Positions 19,138 to 60,459 of a DNA stretch of 64,000 bases are shown here, piece after piece. The stretch is from contig NZ_VANS01000005.1 of NCBI RefSeq assembly GCF_005887615.1, positions 1 through 64,000 on the forward strand. Reading direction: 5' to 3'. Source of the DNA: Sulfitobacter sabulilitoris. GTDB lineage: Bacteria; Pseudomonadota; Alphaproteobacteria; Rhodobacterales; Rhodobacteraceae. Under the pieces are notes generated by a model. That model was not told where the DNA came from and made no database searches. It worked only from the letters and a program-made list of their open reading frames with translations. The first letter of the stretch is position 1, and each line of letters starts with the position of its first letter. The position numbers and the translations under genes were made by a program.

Positions 19138-20301
19138 TCAGGCCGCCTGCACCCGGGCCCACCAATCCTGATAGGCGCGAATGTTGGTGGGGAACACGTT
19201 CTGCCATGAATTGCCGGGCGTGTCGGCGCGCTCTTGCTTGCGGGCCAGTCGGTCGGCCAGCAGCGCCTTGGTCTCGGCATCGAAGTCGTCGGGATGCGCA
19301 TCGATATAGTCGCTCACGCCAACCATCTGCGGGGTAAAACCCAGACCGGCAAGCGTGCGCGCGCCGAACCACGGCGACAGGTACACGTTGGCCAGCGCAT
19401 AAAAGGCGTCCTCCATGCCGCGCTCCTGCCCGCCCTTGGTCAGCATCACGACGTTGTTCCACGACTGGTGGCCTTCCTTCATGGTGCCATAGCGGATGTC
19501 CTGCCCGTTCTTGCGGGCGGCGAAAATCTGGATCACCTCCCAGCACGACGACACCAGCACCTCTTCGGACGACAACAGGTCGGAGCCGTTCTGCACCCCG
19601 TCCCAGAAGGTGCGGAAATGGCCCTTTTTCTTGAGGTCGATCAGGAACTGGCAGACGCCTTTCACTTCCGCCTCGCTCATGTCGGAGGGGTTTTCGATAT
19701 CCTGCTTGCCCGACTGCTTGAGGTAGATCGCCGTGTTGGTCAGCGTCGGCCCGAAATCGTTCTGCATGGCCGCACGCCCGCGGAACTGGCTGTCGAACAG
19801 CGCCTCCCACGAGGTCAGCTCCTCGCCGATGACGCCGTGGTTGAAGGCGAGGCTGTCGGCGTTCGAGATATAGGGGATCGCCACCAGATCGCCGTTGTGG
19901 CGGATCGTGTCGGCGGCCGGGCCGCCATCTTTGTAATCCGCGAGGATCCCGGACCAGTTGGCGATCCTGGCGGGGTCCAGCGTGGCAATCGCGCCCTGCG
20001 AGGCCAGCGCGTCCTCCATACCGCCGCCATTGTCGGTCATCGCGTCATAGAGCTTGTTTCCGTCGCCCACGACCATCTTCTGAATGCTTTCGTCGGCGCG
20101 TGCGCTCTTGGCGATGGCGGCAATGGGCACGCCGGCCTGCGCCTCCATGGCGGCCCAGTCACTGCCGCCCACCTTGGCGATGCCCGGCGCCCAAAGCTTG
20201 AGCGCTTCGGCGGCGAAGGATTGCGTCGGCAGGCCCGCCACGGCGGCGGCCGACCCGATGAGCGCCAGCATCTGGCGGCGGTTGAAGTCTGTCTGGTTCA
20301 T
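19138..20301 (-). CDS. Extracellular solute-binding protein (PotD type), Tat-exported
   Basis: 387 residues from ATG 20301 (MNQTDFNRRQML), chosen over the upstream ATG 20325 because it gives a clean signal. The motif NRRQML with hydrophobic stretch and AxA site marks a twin-arginine signal. Mature part has the family 1-like lobes (WDGVQNGSDLLSSEEVLVSS, WEVIQIFAARKNGQDI). First gene of the leftward operon; it delivers the ligand to the PotBC-type permeases. Ligand not inferable from sequence; polyamine, betaine and N-heterocyclic compounds are possible. Confidence 0.93.
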   Translation of the reverse strand: MNQTDFNRRQMLALIGSAAAVAGLPTQSFAAEALKLWAPGIAKVGGSDWAAMEAQAGVPIAAIAKSARADESIQKMVVGDGNKLYDAMTDNGGGMEDALASQGAIATLDPARIANWSGILADYKDGGPAADTIRHNGDLVAIPYISNADSLAFNHGVIGEELTSWEALFDSQFRGRAAMQNDFGPTLTNTAIYLKQSGKQDIENPSDMSEAEVKGVCQFLIDLKKKGHFRTFWDGVQNGSDLLSSEEVLVSSCWEVIQIFAARKNGQDIRYGTMKEGHQSWNNVVMLTKGGQERGMEDAFYALANVYLSPWFGARTLAGLGFTPQMVGVSDYIDAHPDDFDAETKALLADRLARKQERADTPGNSWQNVFPTNIRAYQDWWARVQAA

Positions 20302-20657
20302 GGTCTTCCTCACTCCGTTGAACACGGTCGCTGCGCGCCGCTGTGGTCGTCAGGCCGGGATCGCTCGGTCGAGCGAACGCCGACGGGTCAGGGCGTTGTT
20401 TTCCGCCTTTGAAGCTCGCGAGGCTGACGCCGGGTCACAGGGTCCGTGGCTCGGCGGTGCCTTCCTGACCACGACGATAGTTCTGTGTACGAAAATTGGA
20501 AGGAAAACATTTACCTTTCGACCGCAACTCTTGGCATCGACAGCAATCAGAGCGGGAATTATGCACTTATCTAATTGTTATTATTTATCTTTGCTTCACT
20601 AAACCTTCGCATACCAAATACCGCCTAAATTTCAGGCGCTGATTATTCACTGGATTT
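20302..20657 (+). promoter_or_regulatory. Divergent control region of the catabolic cluster
   Basis: 356 bases between the divergent binding-protein and MmgE/PrpD genes. The right half (about 20480-20600) is AT-rich compared with neighbours (ttgttattatttatctttgc), as expected for promoters. No clear operator palindrome, riboswitch fold or terminator is visible. Both operons are likely driven from here, perhaps by the GntR protein encoded at 28800-29474. Confidence 0.45.
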
Positions 20658-22169
20658 ATGGACACGAAATTGTCGATAATGTATCCAAATCCAACACCAA
20701 AGATTCGGAGCCGCGCCCTGGCACATCGCCCAAATCAAGGTCTGCGCCCTAATGCGGCATCGCCGCACGCGGGTTCGCGTGCAGCGCCCGAAAGCCTGAG
20801 CGGGGGGCTGGCCGATCTGTGCCTGCGCGCCATCGACACCGGGGACCGCACCCATGCCGCGACGCTCTTGCTGGATTGGCTGGGCTGCGCGCTGGCCGCG
20901 ACAGGCCAGTCGCAGCATCGGGCGCTGGTGCGGTGGGCGCGCGATGCGCCTCAATCGGGGCGCTCCACCGCATTCGGACTGGGCCAGAGCAGCGCGGAGC
21001 AGGCCGCCTTCGTCAACGGCGGTCTGGGCAATATCCTCGAGATGGACGATCTGCACAGGGCGTCGATCCTGCACGCGGGCGACGTGATCCTGCCCGCCGC
21101 TCTGGCCCAGGCGCAGGCCGCGGACGTCACCGGCACGGCCCTGCTCGACGCGATCGTCTCGGGTTACGACGTGGCGCTCAGGCTGGGACGCGCCGCCGCC
21201 GTGGGCGGCTACTCCGCGTGGTACAATTCCGCCGTCTGCGGCGTGTTCGGGGCCGCGATGGCCTGTGCACGGCTGCGCGGCGCATCGCGCGACCAGATGC
21301 TCGACGCGCTGGGGCAGGCCGGGATGCAGGCCGCCGGTGTCTGGCAATGCCGGCTGGAGCAGACCGACAGCAAACAGGTCGCAACGGCGCAGGCCGCGCG
21401 GGCCGGCGTGACCTCTGCCGCGCTGGCGCTGGCGGGGCTTCGGGGCGCGCGCCACATCCTTGACGGGCCTCTGGGGATCTTTGCCACCTATTATCCCGAC
21501 GCCGACCAAGGCCGGGTGCTGTCCGACCCCGACGGCCCGTGGTTGCTGCACGAGGTCAGCTTGAAACCCTGGCCCGCATGCCGCCACACTCACGCCGCGA
21601 TTCACCTCGCGCTCGGCCTGCGCGACCGGATCGATCCGGCAAAGGTCACGCGGATCGAGATCGGCACATATGCCGCCGGAGTGTCGTTCTGCACCGATCC
21701 CGCGCCCGACACCGATCATCGGGCGCGGTTCAGCTTCGAGCACTGCGTCGCCGTGGCCTTGGAGCGCGGCGCGCCCGGTCTGGCGGATTTCGGTGCCGCC
21801 GCGCGCGACGATGCCGAGATCAGGCGCTTGCGCGGCCTGACCACGGTGCAGGAGAGTCCCGCCCTGAGCGCCGCCTTTCCCGGTGCGATGGGGGCGCGGC
21901 TTTCGGTGCGCCAGACCGGTGCGGCGGCCCTGATGCGCAGCACCCGACATGCCCCCGGCGACCCGGAATTGCCCCTGGGCCTCGATGCGGTCCAGGCCAA
22001 GTTCCGCACCAACACCGGCCACGCCGGGCTGCGCACCGCCGCTGCCGGGGCCTTGATCAACTCGGTGTCGGACCTGCCCGGCGCGGCCTCGCTCGCGGCC
22101 TTGAACACCGCGCTCGCCGGTCTCGGGCCGGACGTGGAGCAGACAGAAAAGGGACCATGTCATGCGTGA
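20658..22169 (+). CDS. MmgE/PrpD family protein
   Basis: 503 residues. The family includes 2-methylcitrate dehydratase, cis-aconitate decarboxylase and uncharacterised isomerases. Motifs: LLDWLGCALAATG, GLGNILEMDDLHRASILHAGD, VSGYDVALRLGRA, SLKPWPACRHTHAAI and a C-terminal hydrophobic region. Start at 20658 is uncertain: there is no clear SD, and the first 45 residues (ending near PESLSGG) are unlike the family; a later start is possible. First gene of the rightward operon; its stop overlaps the cupin start by eight bases. Confidence 0.85.
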   Translation: MDTKLSIMYPNPTPKIRSRALAHRPNQGLRPNAASPHAGSRAAPESLSGGLADLCLRAIDTGDRTHAATLLLDWLGCALAATGQSQHRALVRWARDAPQSGRSTAFGLGQSSAEQAAFVNGGLGNILEMDDLHRASILHAGDVILPAALAQAQAADVTGTALLDAIVSGYDVALRLGRAAAVGGYSAWYNSAVCGVFGAAMACARLRGASRDQMLDALGQAGMQAAGVWQCRLEQTDSKQVATAQAARAGVTSAALALAGLRGARHILDGPLGIFATYYPDADQGRVLSDPDGPWLLHEVSLKPWPACRHTHAAIHLALGLRDRIDPAKVTRIEIGTYAAGVSFCTDPAPDTDHRARFSFEHCVAVALERGAPGLADFGAAARDDAEIRRLRGLTTVQESPALSAAFPGAMGARLSVRQTGAAALMRSTRHAPGDPELPLGLDAVQAKFRTNTGHAGLRTAAAGALINSVSDLPGAASLAALNTALAGLGPDVEQTEKGPCHA

Positions 22170-45568: not shown

Positions 45569-46243
45569 ATGGTAGACTGGATCATCACCGACGGCTTGAC
45601 GGATTACCGCGCCGCCGAAGCCTGGATGGAAGCGCGCGCAGCGGCCGTGGCCGAGGGAGAGGCGCGCGAATGCGTCTGGCTGGTCGAGCATCCCCCGCTC
45701 TATACCGCCGGCACCAGCGCCAAGCGCGAGGACCTGACCGATCCCGCCCGGTTTCCGGTCTATGACACCCGGCGCGGCGGGCAGTACACCTATCACGGTC
45801 CGGGACAGCGTGTGGCCTATACCATCCTGAACGTGGGCCGGCGCGGGCGCGACGTGCGCCGGTTCGTTCAGGATCTCGAGCATTGGGTGATCGCGGCGCT
45901 GGACACCTTCAACGTGACCGGTGAAATCCGCGAGGGGCGCGTGGGCGTCTGGGTCGCGCGCCCGGACAAGCCGCTGACCGCCGCGGGCGCCGTAGCCGAG
46001 GACAAGATCGCGGCGATCGGGATCCGGCTGCGAAAATGGGTCAGCTTTCACGGCATTTCCATCAACGTCGAACCCGACCTGAGCCATTTTTCCGGCATCG
46101 TTCCTTGCGGCATCTCCGAGCATGGGGTGACCAGCCTTGTGGACCTTGGCCTGCCGGTCACGATGGATGATGTGGACATCGCCCTGCGCGACAGCTTTGC
46201 CCGCGTGTTCGGCGACAGCCCCTCGACCGGACAGGCACCCTAA
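45569..46243 (+). CDS. lipB: Octanoyl-ACP:protein octanoyltransferase
   Basis: 224 residues. Transfers octanoate from ACP to lipoyl domains. Signature [15 protein letters not shown] near residue 70, and the catalytic Cys in SGIVPCGI with the Lys in [15 protein letters not shown]. Complete length. The stop is four bases past the convergent response-regulator stop (46240), so the genes overlap slightly. Confidence 0.95.
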
Positions 46244-46746
46244 CCTTCGGTCGGTGCGGTGCCATCGCGGACCATCAGGTATTCCGATACAAAGCTGGCC
46301 ACGTCCGCCTCCCGAATGGGTTTGTTGGCAAATCGGTGCACGTTCTTGTCCGCCTCCGCCCTGTCCTGATCGGATTGCAGCAGCGATGTCGACAGCATGA
46401 TGATGATCTGCTGCGTCTGCTCGGGCACCGGAAGATCGGCATAGGCGTCGAGGAATTCGAAACCGTTCATCCGTGGCATGTTGATATCGAGCAGTATGAG
46501 CTCCGGCTGGGCCGGGCCCCTGTTCGCGGGATCGCACAGGTAATCAAGTGCCGCGATCCCGTCGGTGGCCACGTCGATCGTGTCGACAAGGCCGGTGCGC
46601 GTGATGACGCGGCGGTGCATCATGTTGGTCACCGTATCGTCATCGACCAGCAGCACCTTGCGCAATCGCCCCCGGTGGACCAACTCCGGCGGAGCGGCCA
46701 GGGGGCCGGGCCCGGTCGGTGCGGTCGCATGTCTCAGTGGCGGCAT
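46240..46746 (-). CDS. Response regulator (single receiver domain)
   Basis: 168 residues. Receiver domain with acidic cluster [12 protein letters not shown] and phosphate-accepting Asp87 in [13 protein letters not shown]; switch IIMLSTSL and Lys in [10 protein letters not shown]. No output domain, like Rcp1 or CheY-type regulators. Its start is within the end of the kinase gene (13-base overlap), so it is the kinase partner. Confidence 0.9.
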
Positions 46747-48053
46747 TCGCTGTCCTCCTGCGGTGATGAAAATATCTGGCCCTTGACCGGAAACCGGAGG
46801 GTAAAGACCGCACCCTGATCCGGCGCGCCGTCGACATCGATCCGGCCGCCGATGCGCTGCATCAGACGCGAGATCGCATGCAGCGCGACGCCCGAGCCTT
46901 CGGGGGCGGCATGGGCGCGCTTGAACAGGCCGAACACCTTGTCCCGGTCCCGAGGCAGGTCAAGGCCGGTGCCGTTGTCGCGCACCGCGAGGCAATCCAT
47001 GCCGTCCTGCGACCACGAGGCCAGATGAATGACGGGCGGACGGGCGGGATCGGCGTATTTCAGGGCGTTGCTCAGCAGGTTTTCCACGATATTGGCCATC
47101 TCCGCGCGGGCGAAATGGACAGTCGGCGCCGCGCTGAAATCACAGGTCACCCGCGCGTCGGACCGTGCGATCAGCGGCTGGAGCGCGGTCTTCGCGGCGG
47201 CCAAAATGTCGTCCAGCGCCACAGGCCCGAATGGCGGCAACCGGTTCGATTGCACCTGCGCCACGCTGACCAGCGCTTCGAGCTTGTCGCGCGCCTGGTT
47301 GCAGACATTCTGCATCCACGACAGCGTTTCACGGTGTTCGTGTGTCATGTCATCCGCCGTGTCGTTCAGCATCGACGAGAGGCTGCACATGTTGTTGATC
47401 GGCACCTTGAGGTCGTGGGTCGCGACATAGGTGAGCTGTTCAAGCTCTCGCACCGAATCGCTCAGTTCCAGCGTGCGCCGCGCGACGCGCGCCTCAAGCT
47501 CCCTGTTGAGGATGTTGAGCTGATCCGTGCGCGCCGCGACCCGCGCCTCAAGCTCGGCGTTCAGTTCCATCAGGCGCTGCTCGGCCTGCTTTTGGCGCGT
47601 GATGTCAGAGGCAAGCCCGATATGGCGCAGCACCGATCCGTCGGCGGCCCGGTCGAACACCGTATCGACGGAATACAGCCAGACATCCTTGCCGGATTTC
47701 GCGCGGGCGCGGTATTCATACGTGTCCTGCTCGCCCGGCGCCAGCCGGCGGAGCCCCGCGAAATAGGCGCCAAGACCGGCGATGTCGTCGGGGTGGATCA
47801 CCTTTTCCAGCACCGTATCGCCCATTTGCCTGATTTCTTCGGGGCTGAAGCCGATCAGATCGGCGATCGAGCGATTGGAGTATTCGTTGCTCTGCGTCTG
47901 ATGGTTGAAGACATAGATGATGCCGGGCACGAGGACCGACATCCGGCTCAGGAACGCGTGGCTGTTCCATTCGTCGTCAACGACGCCCTCCGCCGGCACA
48001 TCGGGCGACGGATCCTGCACCAGTCGTGCCTTGGCGAGGGATGGGTTTTGCAT
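46734..48053 (-). CDS. PAS-domain histidine kinase
   Basis: 439 residues from ATG 48053. PAS domain (25-150: GIIYVFNHQTQSNEYSN), coiled coil (155-205), phosphorylation site His213 in YVATHDLKVPIN, HATPase domain (290-430) with NLLSNALKYADPARP and DNGTGLDL. No membrane segment, so a soluble sensor of light, redox or small ligand. It may be a phytochrome-like or cytosolic stress kinase with no known stimulus. It is divergent from the ctaD gene. Confidence 0.88.
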   Translation of the reverse strand: MQNPSLAKARLVQDPSPDVPAEGVVDDEWNSHAFLSRMSVLVPGIIYVFNHQTQSNEYSNRSIADLIGFSPEEIRQMGDTVLEKVIHPDDIAGLGAYFAGLRRLAPGEQDTYEYRARAKSGKDVWLYSVDTVFDRAADGSVLRHIGLASDITRQKQAEQRLMELNAELEARVAARTDQLNILNRELEARVARRTLELSDSVRELEQLTYVATHDLKVPINNMCSLSSMLNDTADDMTHEHRETLSWMQNVCNQARDKLEALVSVAQVQSNRLPPFGPVALDDILAAAKTALQPLIARSDARVTCDFSAAPTVHFARAEMANIVENLLSNALKYADPARPPVIHLASWSQDGMDCLAVRDNGTGLDLPRDRDKVFGLFKRAHAAPEGSGVALHAISRLMQRIGGRIDVDGAPDQGAVFTLRFPVKGQIFSSPQEDSECRH

Positions 48054-48366
48054 CGAAAACTCCGGACATCGGGGCGGCGGACGCGCTGCGCCCGAGTGAC
48101 GCGGTCGGGATCCAGATCCTGCCGCGATCGCCAAAATGCCCGCCGCGCGTTAAAAGACGGTAAACAAGTTCCGCTCCCTGCAGACAATTTCGCCGTGGAC
48201 CGTTTGGCGGATCTGCGTTCTGTGCCGCGCCTGCCCGCGTCAATTTATCTTGGTCTGCGGCAAATACGATCATTGCCCCGCTGCCCAAGTCATTCTAAAA
48301 CCCCTCAGACTCTGTAGCGCGAAGTGGAAACTGCGTGCTGCATCACATTAATTCAGGAGGCACCGC
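48054..48366 (+). other. Region between kinase and ctaD
   Basis: 313 bases without a gene. It contains the CtrA-like site at 48150 (towards the kinase) and the leader of ctaD, ending with attcaggaggcaccgc before ATG. No clear promoter boxes for ctaD were identified. Confidence 0.35.
48150..48165 (-). promoter_or_regulatory. CtrA-like box, one mismatch
   Basis: On the minus strand TTTACCGTCTTTTAAC fits the CtrA pattern TTAA-N7-TTAAC with one change (TTTA). It lies about 97 bases upstream of the kinase start, facing it. Short and degenerate motifs arise by chance, so the call is tentative. Confidence 0.35.
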
Positions 48367-52118: not shown

Positions 52119-53276
52119 ATGACCTTTACGCCCGATCGCCCCACCGCCTGCCTTGCCCTGGCCGATGGCACGTTGTTCTACGGCATCGGTTTCGGCGCCA
52201 CCGGACAGACGGTGGCGGAGTTGTGCTTCAACACCGCGATGACCGGCTACCAGGAAATCATGACCGACCCGTCCTATGCCGGTCAGGTCGTCACCTTCAC
52301 CTTCCCCCACATCGGCAACGTCGGCGTGAACCCCGATGACGACGAAACAGCGGAGCCGGTCGCGGCGGGCATGGTGGTGAAATGGATGCCCACCGACCCC
52401 AGTAACTGGCGCAGCGTTCAGGGGCTGGACACATGGCTGGCCGCGCGCGGGCGCATCGCCATCGGCGGCGTGGACACCCGGCGGCTGACCCGGGCGATAC
52501 GGCAATCGGGTGCGCCGCATGTCGCGCTGGCGCATGATCCCGAGGGCGATTTCGACACCGATGCGCTGATCGCGGCGGCGCGCGAATTCGTCGGGCTCGA
52601 GGGGCTGGACCTCGCCCGCGACGTGACCTGTGCGCAGTCCTACCGCTGGAACGAGATGCGCTGGGCCTGGCCCGACGGGCACCAGCCCCAGACCGATCCG
52701 CAACACAAGGTCGTCGCCATCGATTACGGCGCCAAGCGCAATATCTTGCGCTGTCTGGCCAGCGCGGGCTGCGATGTGACCGTCCTGCCCGCCACGGCCA
52801 GCTATGACGACATCATGGCGCATGATCCCGATGGCGTTTTCCTGTCCAACGGTCCGGGCGATCCGGCGGCGACCGGCGTCTATGCGGTGCCGATGATCCG
52901 CGACATCATGGACAAGACCGATCTGCCGATGTTCGGGATCTGTCTTGGCCACCAGATGCTGGCGCTCGCGCTGGGGGCGCGCACCGTCAAGATGAACCAC
53001 GGCCACCACGGCGCGAACCACCCGGTCAAGGACCATGACACCGGCAAGGTTGAAATCACCTCGATGAACCATGGCTTCGCGGTCGATGGCCAAAGCCTGC
53101 CCAACGGCGTCGTCGAGACGCATACGTCGCTCTTTGACGGGTCGAACTGCGGCATCCGGCTCGATGGTCGTCCGGTCTATTCGGTGCAACACCACCCCGA
53201 AGCCTCGCCCGGGCCGCAAGACAGCTTTTACCTGTTCGAACGCTTTGCCAAGGCGATGGCCGATCGCCGCGTCTGA
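52119..53276 (+). CDS. carA: Carbamoyl-phosphate synthase small subunit
   Basis: 385 residues. N-terminal CPSase_sm domain (ADGTLFYGIGFGATGQTVAE, LCFNTAMTGYQEIMTDPSYA) and C-terminal class I glutamine amidotransferase: catalytic Cys in MFGICLGHQMLALALGA, His and Glu in YSVQHHPEASPGPQD. Supplies ammonia to CarB for arginine and pyrimidines. carB is not next to it in this window. Confidence 0.96.
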   Translation: MTFTPDRPTACLALADGTLFYGIGFGATGQTVAELCFNTAMTGYQEIMTDPSYAGQVVTFTFPHIGNVGVNPDDDETAEPVAAGMVVKWMPTDPSNWRSVQGLDTWLAARGRIAIGGVDTRRLTRAIRQSGAPHVALAHDPEGDFDTDALIAAAREFVGLEGLDLARDVTCAQSYRWNEMRWAWPDGHQPQTDPQHKVVAIDYGAKRNILRCLASAGCDVTVLPATASYDDIMAHDPDGVFLSNGPGDPAATGVYAVPMIRDIMDKTDLPMFGICLGHQMLALALGARTVKMNHGHHGANHPVKDHDTGKVEITSMNHGFAVDGQSLPNGVVETHTSLFDGSNCGIRLDGRPVYSVQHHPEASPGPQDSFYLFERFAKAMADRRV

Positions 53277-53324: not shown

Positions 53325-53340
53325 TTAACACTCTGTTAAC
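53325..53340 (+). promoter_or_regulatory. CtrA-type box (TTAA-N7-TTAAC)
   Basis: TTAACACTCTGTTAAC is a full match to the CtrA consensus TTAA-N7-TTAAC, with a seven-base spacer. It lies 50 bases before the ATG of the glycosyltransferase gene. CtrA is the cell-cycle/motility master regulator of alphaproteobacteria. Confidence 0.7.
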
Positions 53341-53390: not shown

Positions 53391-55280
53391 ATGAGCGATC
53401 TGCGCCTGGATTGGCCAGTTTCTCCGGCGATCAGCGCGGACGGGCCGCCCGTGCCGATCGGTCGTCATCTGGTCAGAAAAGGCCTCATCGCCCCGCAGTA
53501 CCTTGTCCATGCCCTCGAGTTGCAACGCCATATCGATGCTCCGCTGGGCGAGATCATGGTCTCCGAAGGGCTGGTCAGCCGCGACGATGTACTGGATGCG
53601 CTCTCCGATCAGGCCAATGCGCAGCGTGTCGACCTGACTGAATCCCCACCCGCGGCCGAGATGTGCGATGCCCTGCCCGCCGCGATCTGCATTGCGCATA
53701 ATGTCGTCCCGTGGATGTATGTCGGGCGCACACTGTTGGTGGCCACAAATGACCCCGGCAAATTCGATCACCTGCGCGCCTGCCTTGGGGCGCGGGCGGC
53801 GTATCTGGTGCCGGTGATCAGCGACAGCGTGCAGATCGCGCACCATCAAAGCCGGCTTTACGGCGCCGAACTCGCAGCGAAGGCCTCGGTTCGGGTGCCC
53901 GCGATCGAAAGCTGCCGCAACTGGGGCGCACGCACCGGCACCCGCCGTTGGATCGCGTTCTGCGCCTTGGGGCTGAGCGCGGCAGCATTGATCGTGTCGC
54001 CGATCTGGACGATCACGATCGCGATGATCTATGCCTCCCTGACGCTGCTTCTGACCGCCGGGATGAAGGCGGCGGCCTTCTGGGCGCAGATCACGCATGG
54101 CCTGCACGATCGGCCTGCGGCTTTCACGCTCGACAAGATGCCGTTCCGCCTGCCGCGTGTCTCCGTGCTCGTTCCCTTGTTGCATGAAAAGGAAATCGCC
54201 AGCGCGCTGATCAAGCGCCTGTCGCAACTGACCTATCCCAAATCCCTGCTCGACGTGATCCTCGTGCTCGAGGCCAGCGACGACGTCACCCGCGAGACCA
54301 TCGCGCGGACCGATCTGCCGAACTGGATGTCGGTGATCGAGGTGCCGGACGAAGGCGGGCTGCTGACCAAGCCTCGGGCGCTGAACTATGCGCTCGATTT
54401 TTGCCGCGGCACCGTGATCGGCGTCTGGGATGCCGAGGACTGGCCCGAACCCGACCAGATCGAACGGGTGGTCACGCGGTTTCACGACGCGCCCGACAAC
54501 GTGGCCTGTCTTCAGGGCATTCTCGACTATTACAATTCGCGCACCAACTGGATGTCGCGGTGCTTTACCATCGAATATGCGACGTGGTGGCGCGTCGTCC
54601 TGCCGGGCATGGCCAAGCTGGGGCTGGTCATTCCACTGGGCGGCACCACGCTGTTCTTCCGCCGCGACATCCTGGAGCGCCTGGGCGGATGGGACGCGCA
54701 TAACGTCACCGAAGACGCCGACCTGGGCGTGCGCCTGGCGCGGCACGGCTATGTCACCGAACTGTTGCCGACCGTGACCTTCGAAGAGGCGAACTGCCGC
54801 CCCTGGCCCTGGGTCCGGCAACGCTCGCGTTGGCTCAAGGGGTTCATGATCACCTACCTCGTTCATATGCGCTCCCCACGAAAGCTTTTGCGCGAACTGG
54901 GCTTCGTCAGGTTTATGGGGCTTCAGTCGATTTTCCTCGCCACGTTTTCGCAGTTCGCCTGCGCGCCTTTGCTGTGGTCGTTCTGGCTTGCGCTGGCGGG
55001 GGTCACGCATCCGGTAAGCCATAGTCTTGGCGCCACTGCCGCCTGGGCGATGGCGGCGCTGTTTCTGATCACGGAACTGCTGAACCTGGGGATGAGCCTG
55101 GTCGCCGTCTCAGGCCGGGGGCGCCGGCACCTGCTGATCTGGGTCGTCACCATGCCGCTGTATTTCACGCTTGGCGCAGTGGCTAGCTACAAGGCGCTCT
55201 ACGAGATGATCGCGCAGCCGTTTTTCTGGGACAAGACGCAGCACGGGGTCGCGGCGCAGACCGATCACCCCTCGTCCTGA
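53391..55280 (+). CDS. NfrB-like processive glycosyltransferase with MshEN domain
   Basis: 629 residues. The N-terminal MshEN (T2SSE_N) domain has two 24-residue motifs, 22-45 (GRHLVRKGLIA…ALELQ) and 51-74 (LGEIMVSEGLVS…LSDQ), spaced by exactly five residues, the layout of the c-di-GMP-binding version. Then hydrophobic segments, a GT2 domain with SVLVPLLHEKEI, DAEDWPEP, TEDADLGVRL and QRSRWLKG (D, DxD, TED, QxxRW) and further membrane helices. It likely polymerises or exports a surface polysaccharide under c-di-GMP control, like NfrB. The stop region overlaps the convergent GntR gene by 16 bases. Confidence 0.82.
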   Translation: MSDLRLDWPVSPAISADGPPVPIGRHLVRKGLIAPQYLVHALELQRHIDAPLGEIMVSEGLVSRDDVLDALSDQANAQRVDLTESPPAAEMCDALPAAICIAHNVVPWMYVGRTLLVATNDPGKFDHLRACLGARAAYLVPVISDSVQIAHHQSRLYGAELAAKASVRVPAIESCRNWGARTGTRRWIAFCALGLSAAALIVSPIWTITIAMIYASLTLLLTAGMKAAAFWAQITHGLHDRPAAFTLDKMPFRLPRVSVLVPLLHEKEIASALIKRLSQLTYPKSLLDVILVLEASDDVTRETIARTDLPNWMSVIEVPDEGGLLTKPRALNYALDFCRGTVIGVWDAEDWPEPDQIERVVTRFHDAPDNVACLQGILDYYNSRTNWMSRCFTIEYATWWRVVLPGMAKLGLVIPLGGTTLFFRRDILERLGGWDAHNVTEDADLGVRLARHGYVTELLPTVTFEEANCRPWPWVRQRSRWLKGFMITYLVHMRSPRKLLRELGFVRFMGLQSIFLATFSQFACAPLLWSFWLALAGVTHPVSHSLGATAAWAMAALFLITELLNLGMSLVAVSGRGRRHLLIWVVTMPLYFTLGAVASYKALYEMIAQPFFWDKTQHGVAAQTDHPSS

Positions 55281-55918
55281 CGCCGCGCCGCATCCTGTTT
55301 CAGGCGGGTCATGAATGCGACCGAGATGTGCTCGCGCAGGGCGGCATCGGCCGCGGCCTCGTCGCGCGCGGCAATGGCGCGCACGATGGCATCGTGTTCG
55401 GATTGCGCAATCGCGCCGCGACCCTGCGCGGCCAGCGACGTGGTCGCCATCAACGCCATCGTGCGGTGCACCAGATCCAGTTGCTGGACCAGATACCGGT
55501 TGTGCGACGCAAGGTGAATCTGCTTGTGAAACCGCCGGTTGGCTCTCGAAAGCGCGCGTGGATTGTCCTTCAGCGCGTTGTCCTCCTCGACCATGTCGCG
55601 CAGGATCCGCACCTCTTCCTCGGTCGCGTGGCGCGCGGCCAGCCGGGCAGCCAGACCCTCAAGTTCCCGGCGCACCACGTAAAGTTCGGCCATCTGGTTG
55701 TGATCGAGCGACGCCACGATCAGGCTGCGCCCGTCGCGTGCCAGCAGGCTTTGCGTCTCGAGCCGCTGCAACGCTTCGCGGATCGGCGTGCGCGACACCC
55801 CGAACCGTTCGGCCAGTTCGCTTTCCACCAGCCGGTCGCCGGGGCGGTAGACGCCCACGTCGATCGCCTCGAGGATCATGGAATAGGCATCGGTCAGTTG
55901 CGGTTTCTGCAGGGACAT
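55265..55918 (-). CDS. GntR-family regulator (FCD subfamily)
   Basis: 217 residues from ATG 55918 (MSLQKPQLTD). Winged helix with ELAERFGVSRTPIREALQRL, FCD domain with RRFHKQIHLASHNRYL and QSEHDAIVRAIAARDEA. Nothing catabolic is next to it, so its target is unclear; neighbours on the right are the HAD phosphatase and the UbiH-type gene. Confidence 0.9.
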   Translation of the reverse strand: MSLQKPQLTDAYSMILEAIDVGVYRPGDRLVESELAERFGVSRTPIREALQRLETQSLLARDGRSLIVASLDHNQMAELYVVRRELEGLAARLAARHATEEEVRILRDMVEEDNALKDNPRALSRANRRFHKQIHLASHNRYLVQQLDLVHRTMALMATTSLAAQGRGAIAQSEHDAIVRAIAARDEAAADAALREHISVAFMTRLKQDAARRQDEG

Positions 55919-56049
55919 CGAACGGGCCTTTTCTAGGAGTGGCACCAGTTAACGTCGCGGCCGACCACCGCGCAACCCTCGGAGCGCCCAGCGTGATGCC
56001 CCAGTGAAGAAACCTTGCATCGCATCGCGCGCCCGCCTACCTAGGCGCC

Positions 56050-59358: not shown

Positions 59359-60459
59359 ATGGCACAAACGACCCTGTTGCTGAACGGGTTCAGCATCATT
59401 GGCGATCCACAGACCAATTCCAACGCCGCAAACGGCGGAAATCTGTTCGTGCACAACGGCACCGCCGTGTTCGAAGCCGATGATATCATCGTCTTCACTG
59501 TCGAAGGCGCAACCGTCGATGGCGTCTTGACCGACGACAGCGTCATCACCGGCATCACCGTCTATGACAACGCCAGCGATTATTTCTACGACAGTCCGCT
59601 CTACACCTATACCGCGCTGCCCGACCTTGAGGTCGACATCGATTACGGCCGCAACACGATGGGCGACCGCTATCTGGAATTCGACGCGACGACACTGGTC
59701 TCGACCGATGCAGGCGCGCCTGTGCTTGGTGAAATGGCGCTGGTCGCGGGGGTCGACATCCTTGGCACACTGGCCACGACGACCGGCCCGCTGCGTGTTC
59801 CGACGACAGAGGCGATCGATATCGACGGCGACGGGGTGATCACCGCCGACGAGCAAGGCGACGCCTCCTTTTCAAGCGATCTGAATATCTTTGCGGTGAT
59901 CTGCTTTGCCGCGGGCAGCCTGATCGAGACGCCGCAAGGGCCCCAGTTCATCGAGACGCTGGCGGTGGGCGATCTGGTCAATACGCTGGACGACGGCCCG
60001 CAACCGATCCGCTGGATCGGCGCGCAACGCGTGGCCGGACAGGGGCCCATGGCCCCGGTGGTGATCGCGCCCGGCGCACTGGGCAATATCCGGCAGTTGG
60101 TCGTGTCGCAAAACCACAGGATGCTGGTGACGGGTGCGCGGGCCGAGTTGCTATTCGGTCAGCGCGAAGTGCTGGTCGCGGCCAAGCACTTGGTGGACGG
60201 CGAAAAAATCCGAATCGAAGCCCGCGCGCAGGTGACGTATTACCACTTCCTTCTGGATGCCCACCAGATCGTCTTTGCCGAAGGCTGCCCGGCCGAAAGC
60301 CTGCTGGCGGGCGCGCAGACACTGGCCACCCTGCCCCCGGAGGACCGCGACGAAATTCTGGCGGTGTTCCCCGACCTGACGCATGACGCCGCCCCGATGG
60401 ACGCCTCGCGGTATGCCCTGCGCCAGTTCGAGGCCATGGCGCTGCGCCGCATCGCCTAA
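59359..60459 (+). CDS. Hint-domain secreted protein
   Basis: 366 residues. N-terminal about 150 residues of beta-rich type, an EF-hand-like calcium loop DIDGDGVITADE (154-165), then a Hint (Hedgehog/intein) module beginning at Cys182 (CFAAGSLIETPQGPQFIETL) with His253 in SQNHRMLVTG. No classical signal; roseobacters carry many such proteins, thought to leave by a type I system. Hint could self-cleave at Cys182. Function of the N-terminal part unknown. Confidence 0.82.
   Translation: MAQTTLLLNGFSIIGDPQTNSNAANGGNLFVHNGTAVFEADDIIVFTVEGATVDGVLTDDSVITGITVYDNASDYFYDSPLYTYTALPDLEVDIDYGRNTMGDRYLEFDATTLVSTDAGAPVLGEMALVAGVDILGTLATTTGPLRVPTTEAIDIDGDGVITADEQGDASFSSDLNIFAVICFAAGSLIETPQGPQFIETLAVGDLVNTLDDGPQPIRWIGAQRVAGQGPMAPVVIAPGALGNIRQLVVSQNHRMLVTGARAELLFGQREVLVAAKHLVDGEKIRIEARAQVTYYHFLLDAHQIVFAEGCPAESLLAGAQTLATLPPEDRDEILAVFPDLTHDAAPMDASRYALRQFEAMALRRIA

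Follow-up and report, generated by a model that had tools for sequence, protein, structure and literature searches.

A carA-linked MshEN glycosyltransferase of Rhodobacteraceae: a conserved CtrA-type box and repeated loss of the predicted c-di-GMP-binding half-domain

The 64 000 nucleotides of Sulfitobacter sabulilitoris DNA analysed here (the whole stretch, hereafter the window) contain a gene at 53391–55280 on the + strand that places a domain of the c-di-GMP-binding MshEN type in front of a membrane glycosyltransferase (GT), and the locus raises the question of what such an enzyme makes and how its use is controlled. An earlier note on this DNA had seen in the gene an NfrB-like GT with an ‘exact’ MshEN double motif, and had suggested a stand-alone, c-di-GMP-controlled enzyme of surface polysaccharide. 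The coordinates, frame and length (629 aa) given there are correct, and the frame is open throughout. What survives is an MshEN-bearing GT2 in a roseobacter, with no adjoining polysaccharide partner; the likeness to NfrB does not. To this we add a CtrA box, a wide carA-linked distribution and repeated loss of the motif in relatives. We favour the reading, with a probability of roughly 0.58, that the carA-linked GT is a CtrA-transcribed, c-di-GMP-activated polysaccharide synthase that has repeatedly been released from direct c-di-GMP control.

The gene was characterized from its ORF, from domain models and alignments, and from an AlphaFold2 model built from 52 sequences (mean pLDDT 88.1, pTM 0.88) that was compared with solved structures; all features that follow are on the + strand. 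At the N-terminus, residues 22–74 (53454–53612) carry the two 24-residue c-di-GMP motifs of an MshEN_N subdomain, a four-helix bundle in the model, and residues 79–162 (53625–53876) form an MshEN_C subdomain that exceeds the cut-off of PF05157. Two long hydrophobic helices, probably transmembrane (residues 179–236; 53925–54098), precede the GT2 catalytic domain (residues 255–484; 54153–54842), which is recognized by PF13641, PF13632 and PF00535, with Pfam GT2 models over cut-off within residues 255–534. The C-terminal helices (residues 505–608; 54903–55214) are probably also transmembrane and are spanned by VIA-align alignments to BcsA and hyaluronan synthases. The model and the hydrophobic sequence suggest a topology of cytosolic MshEN, two membrane helices, cytosolic GT and further membrane helices. 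No match to a sigma-70-type promoter or a terminator was found around the GT start.

Homologs of the GT (E ≤ 1e-40) are present in 358 of 394 Rhodobacteraceae genomes, sampled as one genome per genus, and in 45/385 genomes of the class, five of these again from Rhodobacteraceae; some of the absences in the family are contig-edge cases (G122, G216 and G166). The S. sabulilitoris genome has a single copy. Roseobacters, for example Roseobacter, Sulfitobacter, Tateyamaria and Ruegeria, make up the named relatives among the best 80 of at least 590 matches, the nearest of them (66–67% identical) belonging to Ascidiaceihabitans, Roseobacter and Sulfitobacter. Directly upstream lies carA, encoding the small chain of carbamoyl-phosphate synthase (52119–53276, + strand; Pfam GATase and CPSase_sm_chain), and this arrangement recurs in 56/60 family loci, with a median gap of 89.5 bp to the first start codon; in other families carA adjoins the GT in none of 22 loci. 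The recurring neighbours in the window and 80 named loci, again the best 80 of at least 590 matches, are YqeY, carA, a HAD hydrolase, a UbiH-like protein, an aminotransferase and ilvC, as grouped in clusters of length-picked ORFs, some of which are antisense shadows. YqeY, the HAD protein and the aminotransferase were identified by Pfam in the window, and two further neighbours we take to be UbiH-like and ilvC. Those flanking genes that were identified have housekeeping or regulatory roles. No export partner was found next to the GT in these 80 loci (best 80 of at least 590) or in the window, and no exporter or BcsB-like partner was linked to it in the Rhodobacteraceae loci examined. Searches of the open-licence PMC literature, judged by titles and the openings of abstracts, brought up no paper on the carA-linked gene, and a link to the Rhodobacter capsulatus capsule genes rcc01081 and rcc01932 found no backing in such passages.

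The gap between carA and the GT contains the sequence TTAACACTCTGTTAAC (53325–53340, + strand), with 51 bp between its last TTAA and the GT start codon, an ATG. This box matches exactly the CtrA motif of Dinoroseobacter shibae, TTAAC-N5-GTTAAC, as given in passages of PMC7232146; the related pattern TTAA-N7-TTAAC has been used to predict D. shibae CtrA sites (excerpts of PMC4046655). TTAA-N7-TTAA occurs only once in the 64 kb of the window, upstream of the GT, and stands before the GT in 71/79 named loci and 113/140 genus loci, where each other TTAA spacing from 0 to 15 is represented in 0–3 loci. A first-order Markov model predicts 0.285 of 140 loci, with a maximum of 2 in 200 draws. Outside the GT upstream region the pattern was found eight times in the 1514 kb of the 79 named loci, and in other families it precedes the GT in none of 22 loci. 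Because the sites share ancestry, these counts speak for conservation and not for independent gains. The genome encodes CtrA (NF045991, 430.6 bits, cut-off 350), and TTAACN6TTAAC occurs at six places in it (seven rows, as one palindrome is read on both strands) vs two control hits; one of the six lies upstream of ctrA itself, as autoregulation would predict. None of the three GGDEF loci of the genome has a CtrA box. We infer from the conserved, exactly matching box that transcription of the GT would be under CtrA, the sign of this control being presumed.

We then considered whether the GT is likely to bind c-di-GMP. The two 24-residue motifs at residues 22–45 and 51–74, with a linker of five residues, which the earlier note had pointed out, are not a chance resemblance: the NCBIfam model NF053729 (c-di-GMP_motif) gives residues 22–74 a score of 47.5 bits, above its curated cut-off of 38. 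Judged by these models, the two repeats make up the motif pair of MshEN_N, next to which the Pfam match at 79–162 represents the MshEN_C half. The comparison with MshE that had been proposed as a check also agrees, in that VIA-align superimposes residues 20–157 of the AlphaFold2 model on MshE with bound c-di-GMP (5htl_B; Z 17.8, rmsd 1.8 Å, 137 residues aligned), placing the N-terminus in the MshEN fold. The GT thus has in common with the MshE N-terminal domain (5htl) its fold and its 24+5+24 motif pair; the domain sits on an ATPase in MshE and on a glycosyltransferase here, and Arg9 and Arg38 of MshE are Pro in the GT.

To call the motif exact was nevertheless too strong. When counted by hand against the consensus RLGxx(LVI)(LVI)xxG(LVI)(LVI)xxxxLxxxLxxQ (quoted from passages of PMC5013675), 17 of 22 positions fit, 9/11 in motif I and 8/11 in motif II. 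The departures are Pro22 and Pro51, at the positions of Arg9 and Arg38, and a Met at one hydrophobic core position, together with the conservative changes of Leu10 to Ile (I23) and of Leu54 to Val (V67); the ligand residues G24, G53, L38, L42, L52, L71, Q45 and Q74 are kept. The Arg and Leu binding residues have fared differently, the Leu-type positions being retained, with two conservative changes, and both Arg being replaced by Pro. Among 62 family members with an intact motif, Pro occupies the first Arg position in 46 and the second in 29, and Arg itself is kept in 3 and 17, respectively. The equivalents of Gly11 and Gly40 are Gly in 58/62 and 49/62, and those of Gln32 and Gln61 are Gln in 51/62 and 52/62, although this conservation is partly built in because the rows were selected by motif score. 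According to the passages of PMC5013675 available, changes of hydrophobic residues in MshE cost more than 10-fold in affinity and changes of charged residues, Arg9 included, apparently at most fivefold; its discussion nevertheless rates Arg9 and Gln32 as important. Since the charged changes are cheap in MshE and the hydrophobic ligands are mostly kept here, the GT is likely to bind c-di-GMP, perhaps with lowered affinity.

The motif is not present in all relatives. The motif model matched at E ≤ 0.01 in 241/394 family genomes (162 over cut-off), and 119 of the 358 GT-bearing genomes lack it at this threshold, so c-di-GMP control is presumably not needed everywhere. Reading 140 family GTs at the DNA level gave 62 with an intact motif, 13 weak (L131 among them, at 27.3 bits), 36 degenerate, 24 deleted (L173 and L155 are of this type) and five unclear. 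These 140 are a non-random set, comprising the 30 best family matches, 61 motif-less genomes and 49 hand-picked matches; for the motif-less part, 65 of the 119 genomes were searched, and four with split or truncated genes were left out. In loci with full flanks, the box is present in 53/62 intact, 11/12 weak, 28/31 degenerate and 15/22 deleted cases, the last figure including L158 (genome G123), which has an in-frame TGA and not a deletion. The Ruegeria pomeroyi locus (L069) combines a strong motif, at 95.0 bits, with the box. The distance from the box to the equivalent of residue 181 has a median of 138 codons in 18 deleted loci with a box vs 198 in intact ones, and in deleted loci with a box the latter is 6–51 nt from the first start codon. 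MshEN_C scores at least 8 bits in 22/24 deleted GTs; L200 and L206 are without MshEN_C too. By these distances, the deletion removes about 59 codons, the ligand-binding half-domain, and leaves the promoter in place.

With the family’s own motif model, eight of 22 relatives from outside Rhodobacteraceae score at least 40 bits, six score 20–40, and eight score lower or have no match. Because the motif is common to several families, though not universal, the c-di-GMP half-domain is probably ancestral to the GT. On a GT-domain tree, obtained by a quick search, with many open forks and with nine outside-family members that are mostly motif-bearing, the fewest changes required were 16 when intact or weak motifs were set against lost ones and 14 when deleted were set against all others. 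Eight deep branches of the family have deleted, degenerate or unclear motifs; an early loss with later regain is nonetheless less likely. Read in this way, the sequences indicate that the c-di-GMP half-domain has been lost repeatedly from a GT that itself persists, usually together with its box.

These losses bear on the strongest alternative, that MshEN is a structural relic on a synthase that is active without c-di-GMP and is regulated by CtrA transcription only. Both the replacement of the two Arg by Pro and the many relatives in which a degenerate or deleted motif leaves GT and box in place (the 28/31 and 15/22 above) would be accommodated by it. We consider it unlikely, because the Gly, Gln and Leu-type positions are kept in the 62 intact members, though these rows are motif-selected, because relatives as distant as the eight outside-family ones at 40 bits or more carry a motif that the family’s own model recognizes, and because in MshE changes of charged residues, Arg9 among them, cost at most fivefold in affinity, as opposed to more than 10-fold for hydrophobic ones (passages of PMC5013675).

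The argument that the carA-linked GT is a c-di-GMP-activated polysaccharide synthase depends also on its catalytic half. The motifs of processive GT2 enzymes are all present: DAED, of DxD type (residues 347–350; 54429–54440), TED (residues 440–442; 54708–54716) and QRSRW, a QxxRW motif (residues 477–481; 54819–54833), each invariant in alignments of 18 and of 52 sequences. For residues ∼200–625 of the AlphaFold2 model, the top match in VIA-align was the mannosyltransferase PcManGT (Z 28.1), followed by BcsA with c-di-GMP (4p00; Z 23.8, rmsd 3.7, 393 residues aligned), 8sne (Z 23.2 over 372 residues) and hyaluronan synthases (Z about 20–23). The modelled fold is that common to solved processive synthases, flanking helices included. 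We conclude from the motifs and the model that the core is a processive-type GT2 with the BcsA/hyaluronan-synthase fold, and that it would form a polymer.

Homologs from other families offer a view of a possibly older setting. In 18 longer stretches of such DNA the GT was located in 16, and in four of these (L330, L331, L332 and L346) a BcsB-like protein is encoded directly upstream on the same strand. These neighbours are 713–752 aa long as picked and have, by our own reading, a signal-like stretch at the N-terminus and an anchor-like stretch at the C-terminus. Each of the three that were scanned has a Pfam BcsB match at E ≤ 1, the best at 8.6e-9, with 27.3 bits for L346, over the cut-off of 21, and 14.6 bits for L330, below it; the L332 neighbour was grouped with them by BLAST cluster only. 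When the BcsB-like neighbours were combined into a three-row profile, no solved structure matched it at E ≤ 0.1. In L330 a GH113 protein is also encoded, on the opposite strand. This arrangement supports, without proving, an older setting of polymer synthesis with a periplasmic partner. A small protein that we read as beta-barrel-like is encoded near the GT in L331, L336, L343 and L346; the three scanned have no Pfam match.

The GT might instead decorate a lipid or lipopolysaccharide with a single sugar or a few, with MshEN timing a surface modification. There is no exporter nearby, the carA context is silent on export, and PcManGT ranks ahead of the polymer synthases, all of which would suit such an enzyme. 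We regard it as rather improbable, since TED and QRSRW together are a processive-GT2 signature, BcsA and hyaluronan synthases align with the GT through the flanking helices as well, and four homologs outside the family have the BcsB-like protein directly upstream, one of them also with GH113 on the other strand.

For the polysaccharide synthase that we favour, known families provide partial likenesses. BcsA has the processive GT2 fold with flanking membrane helices and a c-di-GMP input, as we presume for the GT, and some outside-family homologs have a BcsB-like neighbour; however, PilZ is C-terminal in BcsA whereas MshEN is N-terminal here, and no bcs genes adjoin the GT. The GT is not a BcsA cellulose synthase, as it scores 36.5 bits with TIGR03030 (cut-off 699.1) and the genome has no PilZ at E ≤ 0.1, and it is not PgaC or IcaA, as it scores 59.6 bits with TIGR03937 (cut-off 422.3). 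BgsA of Sinorhizobium meliloti binds c-di-GMP through its own C-terminal region and not, as predicted for the carA-linked GT, through MshEN. In the literature passages available, BgsA is a c-di-GMP-activated synthase of mixed-linkage beta-glucan in which no c-di-GMP domain of the PilZ kind can be predicted; like the GT, it is an alphaproteobacterial glycosyltransferase that would respond to c-di-GMP without PilZ.

NfrB of Escherichia coli, a c-di-GMP-activated GT2 of the phage N4 receptor system, resembles the GT in having a membrane-bound DxD/TED/QxxRW GT2 and MshEN on one chain. In NfrB the GT stands ahead of a terminal MshEN, and the operon also encodes NfrA and YbcH (passages of PMC8669469); here MshEN (residues 22–162) precedes the GT (255–484), a CtrA box lies upstream, and NfrA_C (PF13283) has no match in the whole genome at E ≤ 1. 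The earlier note was therefore right that no NfrA-like partner stands beside the GT, and the label ‘NfrB-like’ has to be given up. That the GT is an NfrB orthologue that lost NfrA is highly improbable, because, for all that the two have MshEN and GT2 in common and NfrB-type models match the MshEN part, the domain order is reversed, the NfrB equivalog NF008411 gives 40.1 bits vs a cut-off of 1170 in a single stretch (residues 12–121) on that part, and NfrA_C is not found.

As to the c-di-GMP setting, GGDEF matches three times in the S. sabulilitoris genome, PilZ has no match at E ≤ 0.1, and no protein other than the GT exceeds the cut-off for either MshEN or PilZ, the next MshEN match (18 bits) being read as a GspE ATPase. 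PilZ was found in 70/275 family genomes (E ≤ 0.01), which we take to be G000–G274 of our numbering. GGDEF is present in 259 of the 275; 189 of these 259 have no PilZ match, among them 131 with the MshEN motif. PilZ is rarer in motif-bearing genomes (38/167 vs 31/81, p 0.015, kinship ignored), and the number of GGDEF genes did not differ with motif state (p 0.34, 179 genomes, with counts saturating near nine). The GT is absent in 20/22 GGDEF-less genomes vs 16/372 with GGDEF (Fisher 7.6e-22, kinship ignored). We also placed 66 of 78 chosen genomes, those with carA, on a carA tree, 18 of the 22 GGDEF-less among them; it contained three supported independent GGDEF/GT pairs, of which about 1.5 agree and none oppose, which is not significant. 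For three GGDEF-less genomes, G027 (99/95 support) and, with weak support, G116 and G011, the sister on this tree is already without the motif. Because the carA tree resolves too few independent events, co-loss of GGDEF and GT is a hint only. In the passages seen of PMC6473078, no PilZ-domain gene could be identified in D. shibae, and c-di-GMP is reported or proposed, in passages of PMC5429656 and PMC6473078, to steer roseobacter lifestyle and gene-transfer-agent biology. Other types of c-di-GMP receptor may exist besides the GT in PilZ-less genomes.

Taken as the CtrA-transcribed, c-di-GMP-activated synthase that we favour, the GT would work as follows. An inner-membrane processive GT2 of BcsA/hyaluronan-synthase type would make, and presumably export, a surface polysaccharide, with a cytosolic N-terminal MshEN as its c-di-GMP switch in place of a C-terminal PilZ. 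On binding c-di-GMP across both 24-residue motifs, MshEN would shift its position on the synthase, opening the active site. CtrA at the box 51 bp upstream would set the timing of transcription. If CtrA sets expression and c-di-GMP sets activity, output would therefore need both. An ancestral form may have had a BcsB-like protein as its periplasmic partner; the Rhodobacteraceae version sits next to carA and is preceded by the CtrA box, with no BcsB-like partner adjoining. Many lineages are without the c-di-GMP half-domain yet retain the synthase, which has presumably become independent of direct c-di-GMP control.

As a more tentative proposal, which we think possible but hold with some doubt, the GT may be the principal c-di-GMP effector that is still missing in Rhodobacteraceae without PilZ. 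It would be a core polysaccharide synthase, inherited vertically, that acts as a coincidence gate, with CtrA governing expression and c-di-GMP governing activity, and on many occasions its c-di-GMP module would have been excised or worn away. If this is so, roseobacters gain a c-di-GMP target, which has so far been hard to find, and through a conserved carA-side enzyme that has a CtrA box, the direct target of c-di-GMP would come within reach of experiment. The family would also offer c-di-GMP-gated and ungated forms of a single enzyme, already paired for comparison: by repeatedly shedding no more than the ligand-binding half-domain, its lineages would have run a natural experiment in how a synthase comes free of its second messenger.

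In the window, the MshEN glycosyltransferase converges with a GntR/FCD regulator gene (55265-55945, minus strand), and the two reading frames share 16 bp. Also encoded there are a PAS histidine kinase and, just after it in an overlapping frame, a stand-alone response-regulator receiver (46240-48134, minus strand), as well as a 366-residue Hint-domain protein (59359-60456, plus strand; PF13403 at residues 181-318, 173 bits). Elsewhere in the same genome, strict CtrA-type boxes precede ctrA (L323; contig C1:546545) and a glycine-rich repeat protein (L324 near 1500; contig C12:72400), which we take to resemble RTX. An ATPase on contig C13 (L002; 310562-313786), presumably GspE-like, matches MshEN at 18 bits only, and its MshEN domain is apparently degenerate.

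Among the 81 loci read for recurring neighbours, 43 carry, about 8 kb downstream of the glycosyltransferase, a gene like the one at 19509-20889 (minus strand) of locus L038, which we assume encodes a GlmM-like phosphoglucosamine mutase. At E<=1e-10, a GGDEF match was absent from Rhodobacteraceae genomes G014, G029, G033, G059, G090, G102, G109, G136, G157, G164, G167, G172, G201, G209, G224, G227, G280, G313, G378 and G392, some of them larger than 4.5 Mb, and every one likewise lacked a glycosyltransferase match at E<=1e-40.

In other alphaproteobacterial families, a BcsB-like protein is encoded immediately upstream of the MshEN glycosyltransferase homolog at four loci (L330, L331, L332 and L346), the motif being weak in the L346 homolog. 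A small beta-barrel-like protein lies near the homolog in L331 and L346, and one of the four loci has a GH113 glycoside hydrolase on the opposite strand. These loci possibly represent an uncharacterised MshEN-regulated BcsA/B-like synthase operon.
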